DNA of 64,000 bases from Mesorhizobium sp. M2A.F.Ca.ET.046.03.2.1 (lineage in GTDB: Bacteria; Pseudomonadota; Alphaproteobacteria; Rhizobiales; Rhizobiaceae): positions 4,762,001 to 4,826,000 of the forward strand of contig NZ_CP034449.1 of NCBI RefSeq assembly GCF_003952425.1, in the 5' to 3' direction. The notes under the pieces were generated by a model. That model ran no database searches and had not been told where the DNA came from. It saw nothing but the letters and a program-made list of their open reading frames with translations. The translations under genes were made by a program, and so were the position numbers. Below are positions 17,298 through 25,708 of this stretch, piece after piece (the first letter of the stretch is position 1; the number at the start of each line of letters is the position of its first letter).

Positions 17298-18872
17298 ATG
17301 AGCAGCGTCGGCGCCGCCTTCAGGCTCGCCCGGGCCGGCTGGGTGCTGGTCCGCGAGGGCGTCGTCGCGGCGTTGCCGGGCGAGGAGCTCTCCGGCATGC
17401 CGAAATTCGGCTGGAGCGTTGCGCGACTTTTCACCCGGCGGCGGGCGCTGAGCTATCAGCGCGGCGACAGGCTGGCGCGCGCGGTGGTGCGGCTCGGGCC
17501 TTCCTATGTCAAGCTCGGCCAGTTCCTGGCAACGCGGCCCGATGTCGTCGGCAACGACATGGCGCTCGACCTCGCGCTGTTGCAGGACAAGATGCACACC
17601 TTTCCGAAGGCGGAAGCGGTCCACGCGATCGAGGCCTCGCTCGGCCGCAGGATCGACGATCTCTATTCGAGCTTCGGTGAGCCGGTGGCGGCGGCCTCGA
17701 TCGCGCAGGTGCACAGGGCCGAGGTCATGCGCGAGGGCACTGCTTCGCGCGTGGCGGTGAAGGTCATCCGGCCCGGCGTGCGGCACCGCTTCTTCCAGGA
17801 CCTCGAAAGCTATTTCCTCGCCGCCCGCCTGCAGGAAAAATACATCCCATCGTCGCGCCGGCTGCGCCCGGTCGAGGTGACGCAGACGCTGGCGCAGACC
17901 ACCAGGATCGAGATGGATTTGCGGCTCGAGGCGGCAGCGCTTTCGGAGCTCGGCGAGAACACCAAGGACGATCCGGGGTTCCGCGTGCCGGCAGTCGATT
18001 GGGAACGGACCGGCCGCGACGTGCTCACCATGGAGTGGATCGACGGCGTCAAGATGAACGACATCGCCGGCCTTGCTGCCGCCGGTCATGACCTCAAGGC
18101 GATCGCCACCAATCTCATCCAGTCGTTCCTCAGGCACACGCTGCGCGACGGCTTTTTCCATGCCGACATGCATCCGGGCAACCTGTTCGTCGAGGCGGAC
18201 GGCACCATCGTTGCCGTCGATCTCGGCATTGCCGGGCGGCTCGGCAAGAAGGAGCGGCGCTTCCTGGCGGAGATCCTCTACGGCTTCATCGTGCGCGACT
18301 ATCAGCGCGTCGCCGAAGTGCATTTCGAGGCGGGCTATGTGCCGCGCCAGCACAATGTCTCGGCCTTCGCGCAGGCGATCCGCGCCATCGGCGAGCCAAT
18401 CCACGGCCAGTCGGCCGACACCATCTCGATGGCGAAGCTTTTGACGCTTCTTTTCGAGGTCACCGAGCTGTTCGACATGGCGACGCGACCGGAGCTGATC
18501 CTGTTGCAAAAGACCATGGTGGTCGTCGAAGGCGTCGCCCGCACGCTCGATCCGGCCTTCAACATGTGGAAGACCTCCGAACCGGTGGTGGGCGACTGGA
18601 TCGCCGGCAATCTCGGTCCGCGCGGGCTGCTCACCGACGCGCGCGACGGCGCCAAGGCGCTGCTGGCACTCGCCCGCCAGGCGCTGGACCTTGCCGCCCG
18701 AACCGACCGGCTGTCGCGCGAGATCGACCTGATGGCCGAGAACGGCCTGCGCTTCGACGAAGCGACCGCGCAAGCCATCGGCGAGGCTGAAGCGCGCCAC
18801 ACCCGGTCCGGCCGCGTGGCGCTGTGGGTGATCGCGCTGACGCTGATCTACATCGCGTGGAAATCGCTCTGA
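17298..18872 (+). CDS. ubiB: UbiB-family atypical kinase/ATPase for ubiquinone biosynthesis
   Basis: 524 residues, typical length. It supports ubiquinone biosynthesis at the membrane through an atypical protein-kinase-like fold. Hallmarks: KxGQ motif KLGQ at 72-75, Ala-rich loop AAASIAQVHRA at about 131-141 replacing the Gly-rich loop, lysine K155 in AVKVIRPG, the catalytic-loop region HADMHPGNLF and the metal motif VDLGI. A C-terminal transmembrane segment (last 20 residues, VALWVIALTLIYIAW) anchors it. It follows ubiE by 57 bp that consist mostly of tandem repeats. Confidence 0.95.
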   Translation: MSSVGAAFRLARAGWVLVREGVVAALPGEELSGMPKFGWSVARLFTRRRALSYQRGDRLARAVVRLGPSYVKLGQFLATRPDVVGNDMALDLALLQDKMHTFPKAEAVHAIEASLGRRIDDLYSSFGEPVAAASIAQVHRAEVMREGTASRVAVKVIRPGVRHRFFQDLESYFLAARLQEKYIPSSRRLRPVEVTQTLAQTTRIEMDLRLEAAALSELGENTKDDPGFRVPAVDWERTGRDVLTMEWIDGVKMNDIAGLAAAGHDLKAIATNLIQSFLRHTLRDGFFHADMHPGNLFVEADGTIVAVDLGIAGRLGKKERRFLAEILYGFIVRDYQRVAEVHFEAGYVPRQHNVSAFAQAIRAIGEPIHGQSADTISMAKLLTLLFEVTELFDMATRPELILLQKTMVVVEGVARTLDPAFNMWKTSEPVVGDWIAGNLGPRGLLTDARDGAKALLALARQALDLAARTDRLSREIDLMAENGLRFDEATAQAIGEAEARHTRSGRVALWVIALTLIYIAWKSL

Positions 18873-18878
18873 TTGCTT

Positions 18879-18909
18879 GCAATGCTAGCATCCAATTTGC
18901 TAGCGTTGC
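18879..18909 (+). promoter_or_regulatory. Inverted repeat resembling a FitA/VapB-type antitoxin operator
   Basis: Arms GCAATGCTAGCA (18879-18890) and TGCTAGCGTTGC (18898-18909), one mismatch, 7-bp spacer, about 26 bp before the start of the FitA-like reading frame. It carries two TGCTAGC half-sites. As I recall it, the operator bound by gonococcal FitAB has TGCTATCA/TGATAGCA half-sites, so the resemblance is notable. It lies between ubiB and the fused gene. Binding is inferred, not shown. Confidence 0.7.
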
Positions 18910-18935
18910 AGGCAGTTGACGGTTGGAACGGGATC

Positions 18936-19181
18936 ATGGGCACGATTACTGTCCGTAATCTAGCGGACGACGTGAAGCAGAGATTGCGCGAACGTGCTGC
19001 AGCACGCGGCGTGTCCATGGAAGAACAGGCGCGCGAGATCCTGGGCAGAAGCGTTCTGTCCGCAGGAGCGGCGACCGCCCCGGAGGGCGAGAGCCTTTAC
19101 GCGGCGATCCGCGGTCTGGTCGAGCCGCATGGCGGCTTTGATATTGAGCTGCCACTGCGCGGCCAATCCGTGGGAAGCCGC
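18936..19181 (+). other. Orphan FitA-like antitoxin segment without toxin or stop codon
   Basis: This is the antitoxin part of the fused frame. In ordinary fitAB or vapBC modules this gene ends a few residues after the IELP-type tail and overlaps a PIN-domain toxin gene. Here the frame runs straight into coaBC and no PIN motif is found on either strand nearby. The retained operator upstream suggests the domain could still bind its own promoter. Confidence 0.75.
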
Positions 19182-20414
19182 ATGACTCTCTCCGGCAAGC
19201 GCATCCTGCTGATCATCGGCGGCGGCATCGCCGCCTATAAATCGCTTGATCTGATACGGCGGCTGCGCGAGCGCGGCGCTTCTGTGCGGGTGGTGATGAC
19301 CTCGGCAGCGCAGGAATTCGTCACCACGCTGTCGGTCGGCGCGCTTTCGGCCGACCACGTCTTTACCGACCTGTTCGACCGCAAGGACGAGCACGATGTC
19401 GGCCATATCAGGCTGTCGCGCGAGGCCGACCTGCTGGTCGTGGCGCCGGCCACCGCCGACCTGATGGCGAAGCTTGCCAACGGCCATGCCAATGACCTTG
19501 CCTCGACGGTGCTGCTGGCCACCGACAAGAAGGTGCTGATGGCCCCTGCAATGAACCCGAAGATGTGGGCGCACGCCGCTACACGCCGCAACCGGGCGAC
19601 GCTGCAGAAGGATGGCATCGCCTTTATCGGCCCCGCCAAAGGCGAGATGGCCGAAAGCAACGAAGCGGGCGAGGGCCGCATGGCCGAACCGCTGGAGATC
19701 GTCGCCGCGATCGAGACGATGCTTGACGAGAAGCCGAAGCCGCTTGCCGGCCGCAGGATCATCGTCACCTCCGGGCCGACGCATGAGCCGATCGATCCGG
19801 TGCGTTACATCGCCAACCGCTCTTCGGGCAAGCAGGGCCATGCCATCGCGGCCGCGCTGGCAAAGCTCGGCGCCGATGTGCGGCTCGTTTCCGGTCCGGT
19901 CACCATTGCCGATCCGGCCGGCGTCGCGACCACCCATGTCGAAACGGGCGCCCAGATGAAGGAAGCGGTCGAGAGCCTGCTGCCGGCGGATGCCGCTGTC
20001 TTTGTCGCGGCGGTCGCCGACTGGCGCACGGCCAACGCCGCCGGCGAGAAGATCAAGAAGGTGGCGGGCGAGGGGCCGCCTGCGCTGCAGATGGTCGAGA
20101 ACCCGGACATCCTGGCCGGCATCGGCCATCATGCGCAGAGGCCTGGCCTTGTCGTCGGCTTCGCTGCCGAAACGCAGGATCTCATCGCAAATGCCGAGGC
20201 CAAGCTCAAGAAAAAGGGCGCCGACTTCATCGTCGCCAACGACGTCTCGCATGAAAGCGGCATCGGCCCATCGGGCGTGATGGGCGGCGACCGCAACAAG
20301 GTGCGCATCGTCTCCAGGGCCGGCGTTGAGGAGTGGCCGGAGATGGGCAAGGACGAGGTGGCGGCGCGGCTTGCCGCGCTGATTGCGGAGCGGCTGCAGA
20401 CCGTCGTGGTGTGA
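18936..20414 (+). CDS. coaBC: FitA-like antitoxin domain fused in frame to CoaBC
   Basis: From ATG 18936 the frame is open for 492 residues. Residues 1-82 are a complete FitA-like antitoxin: a ribbon-helix-helix (TITVRNLADDVKQRL then RGVSMEEQAREIL) and a toxin-binding tail (AAIRGLVEPHGGFDIELP). With no stop, CoaBC follows from ATG 19182 (410 residues): phosphopantothenoylcysteine decarboxylase with the PAMNPKMW active-site block, then phosphopantothenate-cysteine ligase with TSGPTHEPIDPVRYIANRSSGKQG and AAVADWR. CoaBC makes 4'-phosphopantetheine for CoA. ATG 19182 has GGGAAG 4 nt upstream, so CoaBC alone may also be made. No PIN toxin gene is nearby. Operon position after ubiB is the usual rhizobial one. 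Confidence 0.88.
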   Translation: MGTITVRNLADDVKQRLRERAAARGVSMEEQAREILGRSVLSAGAATAPEGESLYAAIRGLVEPHGGFDIELPLRGQSVGSRMTLSGKRILLIIGGGIAAYKSLDLIRRLRERGASVRVVMTSAAQEFVTTLSVGALSADHVFTDLFDRKDEHDVGHIRLSREADLLVVAPATADLMAKLANGHANDLASTVLLATDKKVLMAPAMNPKMWAHAATRRNRATLQKDGIAFIGPAKGEMAESNEAGEGRMAEPLEIVAAIETMLDEKPKPLAGRRIIVTSGPTHEPIDPVRYIANRSSGKQGHAIAAALAKLGADVRLVSGPVTIADPAGVATTHVETGAQMKEAVESLLPADAAVFVAAVADWRTANAAGEKIKKVAGEGPPALQMVENPDILAGIGHHAQRPGLVVGFAAETQDLIANAEAKLKKKGADFIVANDVSHESGIGPSGVMGGDRNKVRIVSRAGVEEWPEMGKDEVAARLAALIAERLQTVVV

Positions 20415-24394: not shown

Positions 24395-24877
24395 TCAGTT
24401 CGCTGTGCTGCGCAGCTGGAACTGGCTGACGCCGATGGCGATGTTGAGACCGGTCTGGGTCTGGACGCTGAGCGGCTGCAGAGTGAAGGCGTTGCCGGTG
24501 CCGCCGACCAGGAGATTGGCGCCGGCGCCGACCGCGGCGGTCACTTCGGCGCTGGCGCCGACATAGTCGCCGGCAAGCGCACCCGGGGCGTAGATGTTGT
24601 TCATCGGCGTCAGCACCAGCCAGCGCATCACGCTCTGGCTGGTCGTGCCGATGTCGAGACCATACTTGTTGACGGCGCCGAAATAGGCTTCCGGCGCGAA
24701 GGTCTTGTCGGCCGGCATGAAGGTGCAGCTCAGATCCTTGCTTGAGCCGAAGACGAAGCCGCTGCCGCCGCCGATGGCGCAATCCAAGACGCCGAGCTCA
24801 ACGCCGCCGGTCTCCGCTCGGGCCTGCCCGGCCAGTGCAACGATCGCCATCGCGGCTGCGGCGATGATCCTCGACAT
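24395..24877 (-). CDS. DUF992-type exported protein (copy 1)
   Basis: 160 residues from ATG 24877, with GAGGGGGG just upstream. Signal peptide (about 1-21, AAAAMAIVALAGQARA), then a small beta-rich domain typical of DUF992: LGVLDCAIGGGSGFVFGSSK near the start with two Cys, and a glycine-rich ending GAGANLLVGGTG then TLQPLSVQTQTGLNIA. Function unknown; family members are periplasmic. A second copy of the same family follows upstream in the genome (25026-25502), a tandem duplication. Confidence 0.85.
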   Translation of the reverse strand: MSRIIAAAAMAIVALAGQARAETGGVELGVLDCAIGGGSGFVFGSSKDLSCTFMPADKTFAPEAYFGAVNKYGLDIGTTSQSVMRWLVLTPMNNIYAPGALAGDYVGASAEVTAAVGAGANLLVGGTGNAFTLQPLSVQTQTGLNIAIGVSQFQLRSTAN

Positions 24878-24900
24878 ATGTCCCCCCTCTTCTTTTTGAC

Positions 24901-24944
24901 GCAATTCCGGACGGAAAACCGTGTCTCACTTTTCCTGGAATTGC
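24901..24944. repeat. AAAACCGC/CACTTTT palindromic repeat
   Basis: 44 bp with outer arms GCAATTCC/GGAATTGC, inner arms GGAAAA/TTTTCC and a diverged loop (CCGTGTCTCAC). Located between the two DUF992 genes, just upstream of copy 1. Confidence 0.9.
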
Positions 24945-25025: not shown

Positions 25026-25502
25026 CTATTTGTAGGAGTGGACGAGGTCCAGCGACGCCACCGCGACGGCCAGGTTGACGCCGGTCTGCGCCTGCACGCT
25101 GAGCGGCTCCAGCATGAAGGCGCCGTCGAGGCCGCCGACCAGGAGATTGGCGCCGCCGCCGGTCACGACGGAAGCCTCGGCGTTGACGCCGTAATAGCTG
25201 CCGGCGAGGTCGCCCGCCTCATGATGGCGCGTGGCGCCGAGCACCGCCCAGACCAGCTGGCCCTGATGCGTCTGGCCGATGTCGACGCCGAGCTTGGAGA
25301 TCATGCCGGTGTACTGCTCGGCCGGATCGTGATGATAGGGACGGAAGGTGCAGGACACGCCCTTGTTGGACGTGATGACATAGCCGACGCCGCCGTCGAT
25401 CGTGCAATCGAGCGTGCCGAGCCGGAGCGTGCCGGCGCTGACTGGGGAAGCGAGGACCGTGGCGGCAAGCGCGGCAGCGGCACAGGCAAGGGATTTGATC
25501 AT
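25026..25502 (-). CDS. DUF992-type exported protein (copy 2)
   Basis: 158 residues from ATG 25502 (AAAGG upstream). Signal peptide about 1-22 (ending SPVSAG). The mature domain parallels copy 1: LGTLDCTIDGGVGYVITSNK, a second Cys in SCTFRPY, and the ending GGGANLLVGGLDGAF then LQPLSV-like LEPLSVQAQTGVNLA. Paralogue of 24395-24877; no enzymatic motif is visible. Confidence 0.85.
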   Translation of the reverse strand: MIKSLACAAAALAATVLASPVSAGTLRLGTLDCTIDGGVGYVITSNKGVSCTFRPYHHDPAEQYTGMISKLGVDIGQTHQGQLVWAVLGATRHHEAGDLAGSYYGVNAEASVVTGGGANLLVGGLDGAFMLEPLSVQAQTGVNLAVAVASLDLVHSYK

Positions 25503-25708
25503 TGGAAAGGTCCTTTCGCGAAAATCTTGGCCCCGGCTTAAACGGTCGAGGTGCAAGGAGCGTTCCGCCGAAAACTTGGCGCGAACATGGCAAAGGTTAA
25601 CGCACTGCCCTGGGCGGTTAACGGATCGCTATCGGCGTCGCCACGGCGCAACACTGCGGCCGCCGGCGGCGACCGCGCCTGGCGCGAGATGCCCTTCCGT
25701 TACAGGCT

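Follow-up and report, generated by a model that had tools for sequence, protein, structure and literature searches.

The gene for the CoA-biosynthesis enzyme CoaBC is fused in frame to a ribbon-helix-helix (RHH) antitoxin domain in Mesorhizobium sp. M2A.F.Ca.ET.046.03.2.1, and this fusion, carried by the 64,000-nucleotide stretch of DNA analysed here (the window), is real. From sequence comparison, it is probable that a fitAB-type pair lost its toxin, that its antitoxin was fused to coaBC and that the resulting protein, RHH-CoaBC, represses rhh-coaBC. Most likely, judging mostly from the genes of a second and older class of such fusions (type B), RHH-CoaBC would work like PutA, the enzyme acting as repressor of the gene that encodes it. 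If this is true, RHH-CoaBC would add a self-regulating enzyme to those known, in a pathway that is essential and is under study as a drug target, and would exemplify how the decay of a toxin-antitoxin (TA) pair can feed host regulation, its scar still readable; the repeated fusions would form a natural series for how metabolic enzymes become transcription factors.

The fused gene and its junction

The fusion gene (18936..20414, + strand) is open from the ATG at 18936 to the TGA ending at 20414 and encodes 492 residues, as the earlier note had read when it described an RHH antitoxin running into CoaBC without a stop. Two separate genes in the window are ruled out by the absence of any stop in the frame 18936-20414. 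The DNA-binding domain and the enzyme share one chain according to Pfam, which finds three domains above their cut-offs: FitA-like_RHH (PF22513; residues 3-39, 54 bits for a cut-off of 27), Flavoprotein (PF02441; 110.7 bits) and DFP (PF04127; 220.5 bits). The FitA-like domain, delimited by Pfam, a profile search and likeness to the antitoxin of locus L016, covers residues 1-42 (18936..19061, +). It is followed by a toxin-binding-like segment, which aligns with the tails of the L016 and L077 antitoxins and now serves as a linker (residues 43-76; 19062..19163, +). CoaBC proper runs from its old start, a second in-frame ATG at 19182 that is present as previously proposed (19182..20414, +), and comprises the CoaC domain (residues 88-260; 19197..19715, +) and the CoaB domain (residues 270-458; 19743..20309, +). 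The upstream neighbour in the ORF list (17298..18872, +, stop at 18870-18872) is presumably ubiB, a name taken from the ubiE-ubiB gene order.

The window CoaBC is matched by the bifunctional CoaBC (Dfp) of M. smegmatis (6tgv) at 7.5e-80; both enzyme domains are present in each, but the window fusion adds an 82-residue N-terminal segment, predicted to bind DNA, and an operator-like repeat. The RHH is 76% identical to the L016 antitoxin over 42 residues. As a single query against PDB sequences it returned nothing significant; a 25-row RHH profile found FitA as its best PDB matches (2h1o at 2.4e-5, and 2bsq). AF2 modelled both the RHH and the full-length protein with low confidence (mean pLDDT 65, below 50 at residues 38-81). 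No match reached E 0.001 in a fold search with the RHH; in its ranking, all of it short of that threshold, VapBC antitoxins, FitA and AmrZ stand on top, followed further down by CopG, by Arc and, at rank 37, by the DNA-binding domain of PutA.

The junction retains a trace of the missing toxin. At L016 (in the same-genus genome G027) and L077 (in Mesorhizobium escarrei), the gene order is antitoxin, PIN toxin, coaBC, the stop of the toxin gene overlaps the coaBC ATG, and the antitoxin tails align with residues 43-76 of the window protein; the L077 toxin is a PIN protein by Pfam (PF01850, 3.1e-12). The toxins end in NPWEGA-stop at L016, NPWETA-stop at L077 and NPWEAR-stop at L148. In the window, positions 19165-19185 (+) read NPWEAA-stop in the second frame, immediately before the ATG at 19182, that is, the last six codons and the stop of a FitB-like PIN toxin gene, out of frame with the fusion and recognized by alignment with the sister loci. 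Counted on the alignment, 433 bp of the L016 sequence between antitoxin tail and toxin end are missing from the window; against L077, a few stray bases align inside the gap and the remnant is likewise visible. As the same toxin end persists out of frame beside a 433-bp gap, the toxin was deleted and its last codons kept as linker DNA. Where L016 and L077 have a cognate PIN toxin gene next to the antitoxin, the window retains 21 nt, and no PIN toxin lies between the fusion parts, in line with the earlier statement that none lies nearby. Toxin loss, which had been proposed from the window alone, is strongly supported by this scar and by the toxin-bearing sister loci, and so is the origin of the window fusion by a toxin deletion that joined the antitoxin to coaBC. 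The fusion shares with FitAB and VapBC an RHH and a presumed operator, and its sister loci carry such a module at the coaBC site; it differs from them in that the toxin is deleted and the partner of the antitoxin is a fused metabolic enzyme.

A like origin is indicated for other young fusions. The RHH of L022 is 98% identical to an antitoxin of L073 and that of L027 is 83% identical to the L078 antitoxin (42 residues in both cases), and, at L027, the DNA directly 5' of CoaBC matches the spacer that follows the toxin at L028 and L079.

Unfused modules are frequent at this site. A PIN-like ORF lies directly 5' of coaBC in 71 of the 79 loci with a separate RHH gene (for example L016, L073, L087 and L097), and all five such ORFs tested were confirmed as Pfam PIN. 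Among the eight remaining loci, a PIN is readable in four (L156, L159, L184, L199), no PIN toxin was found upstream of coaBC in L239 and L244, and L107 and L162, filed as separate-RHH loci, have no clear RHH on inspection. The spot upstream of coaBC looks like a repeated landing place for several kinds of RHH and PIN modules pointing into coaBC. A tandem pair of RHH genes precedes coaBC in L064, L073 and L098, and many of the PIN toxins have similar ends (GDCFAYALAK...HTDIEPALKPA), which may be a family motif.

Distribution and number of the fusions

A search of 37 genomes of the genus, including the window's own, gave a CoaBC match in 36, of which 27 (the window included) are fused and align from residue 1 and nine are not. 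The recurrence of the fused frame in these genomes and in other genera rules out a sequencing error or a single odd strain, and the earlier reading of a single odd locus gives way to that of a widespread architecture. RHH-CoaBC occurs in at least 20 genera of the window's family, namely the window's own, 17 others and those of L170 and L247, a lower bound since genera were counted among the matches listed; it also occurs in a second family (two genera, L301-L309) and in a third (one genus, L310), the loci of both families being a picked subset of the matches. An HMM of the RHH sorts 271 rows into 109 fused, 80 with the RHH in a gene of its own and 82 without it; these rows, duplicates included, correspond to 270 loci plus the window, which is present twice (as L001), and some genomes entered by two routes.

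On a tree of 241 CoaBC sequences (L001 omitted and identical CoaBC merged, from 270; states set by hand to 'none' for L198 and to 'XRE' for L122 and L169), the fused state needs 24 changes, losses included, at least nine of them on starred branches alone. The RHHs of type B form nearly one cluster: all 76 assigned by rule have a type-B nearest neighbour, with two label changes, one perhaps due to L081, which was misfiled outside type B. Eight other fused RHHs resemble free antitoxins more than they resemble type B. This RHH comparison, although its 42 residues are weak evidence for deep order, rules out a single origin for all fusions. The fusions comprise one old, widespread type B, spread by vertical descent or by transfer, and about seven young events, to which the eight others and their copies belong: the window with L031; L032; L019/L069; L022; L027; L075/L112; and L111. 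The window and L031 likely share one fusion event, a sharing likely rather than proven because the L031 junction differs from that of the window by an insertion, and the database relatives P0002-P0009 probably belong to it too.

Fusions of the same RHH to other enzymes were sought with the type-B RHH alone (P0122, residues 1-60), among proteins of about 270-850 aa. The best 120 of the 403 matches all carry CoaBC domains (both in 118, the first only in two), and none of these 120 joins the RHH to a non-CoaBC enzyme.

Operator, selection and start codon

Between the ubiB stop and the fusion ATG lies an operator-like inverted repeat (18874..18914, found by repeat search), with 17-nt arms TGCTTGCAATGCTAGCA (18874-18890) and TGCTAGCGTTGCAGGCA (18898-18914) that are 88% complementary and separated by a 7-nt spacer. 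The earlier note had rightly located it 26 nt before the ATG at 18936; the 12-bp arms that it reported (18879-18890 and 18898-18909) are too short and correspond to the inner part of the repeat, for which a search of the 7.37-Mb genome allowing three mismatches gives a single location. A promoter scan with a consensus of E. coli type found none at the window locus. A -35-like CTTGCA (18876..18881, +) can be proposed on the pattern of type-B promoters, which conserve a CTTG, and a -10-like CTAGCG (18900..18905, +), within the right repeat arm and after an 18-nt spacer, by likeness to the type-B CTATCA, to which it is a poor match.

In type B the presumed operator is nearly invariant. An alignment of 52 distinct loci of the genus (out of 64, 12 being left out as duplicates or for N) displays two elements, TGATTGCATTGCTATCATTGC (21 columns) and GTGCAATCA (9 columns), that are 92-100% conserved, the second ending one base 5' of the ATG; the columns between them are mostly 27-83% conserved, with one at 98% and three consisting mostly of gaps. 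A CTTG, followed after a 17-bp spacer by a CTATC that lies inside this operator, is found in 48 of the 52 loci and a close variant in two more. This arrangement fits the alphaproteobacterial promoter consensus. As CTATC belongs to the operator, a protein bound there would cover the -10. The left element stands at a variable 49 to 53 positions from the ATG in the loci that the motif matched (all but 7 of the 52), as would suit a protein whose flexible arms hold two sites.

Such sites go with the RHH. At least two TGATTGCA-like sites (within 110 bp upstream, one mismatch allowed, shuffled means under 0.1) precede 87/87 type-B genes, 6/8 young fusions and 28/63 separate-RHH loci (63 scored of 68, three having no start found and the others too short an upstream region), as against 1/75 coaBC genes without RHH and 0/2 helix-turn-helix fusions; L081 (two sites) is placed here in type B and L019 (at least two) among the young fusions. 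The two young fusions below two sites are L027, with one, and L022, with none; L022 has a second RHH gene upstream.

The RHH itself is under selection. Across 52 distinct type-B genes from the genus, the dN/dS ratios (RHH 0.059, CoaBC 0.102, linker 0.404) show that purifying selection acts on the RHH no less strongly than on the enzyme. These figures describe type B and not the window's own lineage, since DNA of the window type is limited to L031 and L032. This constraint bears on the possibility that the antitoxin part is an inert leftover, CoaBC being translated mainly from the ATG at 19182. Such a passenger role would suit a fusion that is fairly young in the window's lineage, the internal ATG kept in the window and in L032, and the possible ribosome site GGGAAG that precedes it in the window. 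Some annotations would suit it as well: the database entry P0033 (410 aa) begins at the old start with MTLSGK, with the same body as P0002, which reads ITLSGK there and whose longest contig equals that of P0033 in length, and P0028 begins inside the RHH, at residue 35 of a type-B fusion. These annotations disagree, which leaves room for rare or internal starts, and in 30 of the 52 type-B genes the linker contains at least one possible start codon in frame (ATG, GTG or TTG). However, the Met at the old start is missing in all eight of the window-type database relatives (P0002-P0009) and in L031, and 47 of the 52 type-B genes have no ATG between residue 43 and CoaBC; together with the constraint on the type-B RHH, this makes an inert leftover unlikely.

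A role of the RHH in assembly or localisation rather than in transcription, for example by stabilising the oligomer, would agree with the dimerisation typical of RHH domains. It would also agree with the dodecameric state of mycobacterial CoaBC, whose core is formed by CoaC (PMC7794376). This role is very unlikely, as it leaves unexplained the operator-like sites that go with the RHH, the conservation of the operator and the helix-turn-helix domains fused to other CoaBCs.

The autorepression model and related systems

The retention of the RHH beside a presumed binding site points to control of coaBC by the enzyme itself. The autorepression that the earlier note had suggested is well supported, if indirectly and mostly from type B, by the type-B operator lying over the promoter, by selection on the RHH and by the loss of the internal ATG. 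As the scar and the sister loci show, a fitAB-type antitoxin-toxin pair once stood between ubiB and coaBC, and a deletion of about 430 bp took away almost the whole PIN toxin and fused the antitoxin in frame to coaBC, which thereby took over the operator and promoter of the TA module. If the particle is a dodecamer as in mycobacteria, its 12 RHH domains could pair into six dimers; bound to the repeat, these would cover the -10 region and so repress rhh-coaBC, and, by extension from type B, flexible linkers may let one particle hold two nearby sites. FitAB is described as a hetero-octamer that uses two RHH motifs to bind its operator (PMC3384007). The amount of CoaBC would thus feed back on its own transcription. 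Since CoaB is inhibited by CoA and CoA thioesters (PMC7794376), binding of CoA or acyl-CoA to CoaB might tune repression, although this control by CoA level is a guess. Type B, an older fusion of a like kind, would do the same in many relatives.

The presumed target of this repression is coaBC itself. The type-B operator is found at the fusion gene in eight of nine same-genus genomes and is absent from G000, whose operator is of another form; elsewhere in the nine genomes there is one extra match, in G011, at three mismatches. No wider regulon was seen at up to three mismatches, either for the type-B operator in the nine genomes or for the window operator in its own genome. The earlier suggestion of a link between CoA supply and a TA network accordingly finds little support. 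The same holds for a CoaBC-borne antitoxin, in which the RHH and tail would still neutralise a PIN toxin encoded elsewhere and so tie a CoA enzyme to toxin control. The window type does keep an antitoxin-like tail, partly conserved in relatives, and so does the type-B protein L115, but a pattern for the FitA-like tail retrieves just five of 95 distinct fused sequences, the window among them, and free RHH genes mostly have their toxin gene adjacent. Moreover, the window's genome encodes one other FitA-like RHH (150 of 184 candidates scored) and one distant relative of the L016 FitB, 33% identical and outside the window (PIN gene at G000:C1:3371550-3371945). A toxin-neutralising RHH-CoaBC is therefore highly improbable, and autorepression is retained as the preferred reading.

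The closest known parallel would be PutA (trifunctional proline utilisation A), a bifunctional flavoenzyme that, like RHH-CoaBC, bears an RHH at its N-terminus and is described as an autogenous repressor (PMC5293562). The PutA enzyme and its pathway are unrelated to CoaBC, and the window fusion protein has no Pfam match to the proline dehydrogenase domain of the PutA family proper. Furthermore, PutA represses the put regulon, whereas the RHH-CoaBC site was found only at its own promoter. The PutA RHH is not known to derive from a TA module. BirA and NadR are also biosynthetic enzymes that repress transcription, with other folds and ligands than RHH-CoaBC.

The open-licence literature yielded no paper describing the fusion, nor any on FitA together with TGCTATCA, an absence that is no proof. 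The domain columns of the protein database already list the three domains together, and the architecture is thus on record, though apparently undescribed.

Other DNA-binding domains seem to have been captured by CoaBC too. The CoaBC of L311 (family f16) has an N-terminal HTH_3 domain (29.4 bits, cut-off 23 in Pfam); in genus g83, the N-terminal helix-turn-helix of L122 reaches just 17.8 bits, below the cut-off, and that of L169 is assigned by likeness to L122. We lean, if only slightly, towards a more general view, in which coaBC would be a recurrent sink for DNA-binding domains: TA insertion, toxin loss and antitoxin capture would lead to a dodecameric, CoA-responsive autorepressor bridging two operators, with XRE-type helix-turn-helix domains captured likewise and independently. 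The CoaBC of L318 carries an N-terminal extension of about 75 aa, devoid of Pfam match and helix-turn-helix-like by eye.

Elsewhere in the window, the ORF list includes two neighbouring ORFs (24395-24904 and 25026-25556, both on the - strand) that encode similar small secreted-looking proteins, which we take to be DUF992-like and which may result from a tandem duplication.
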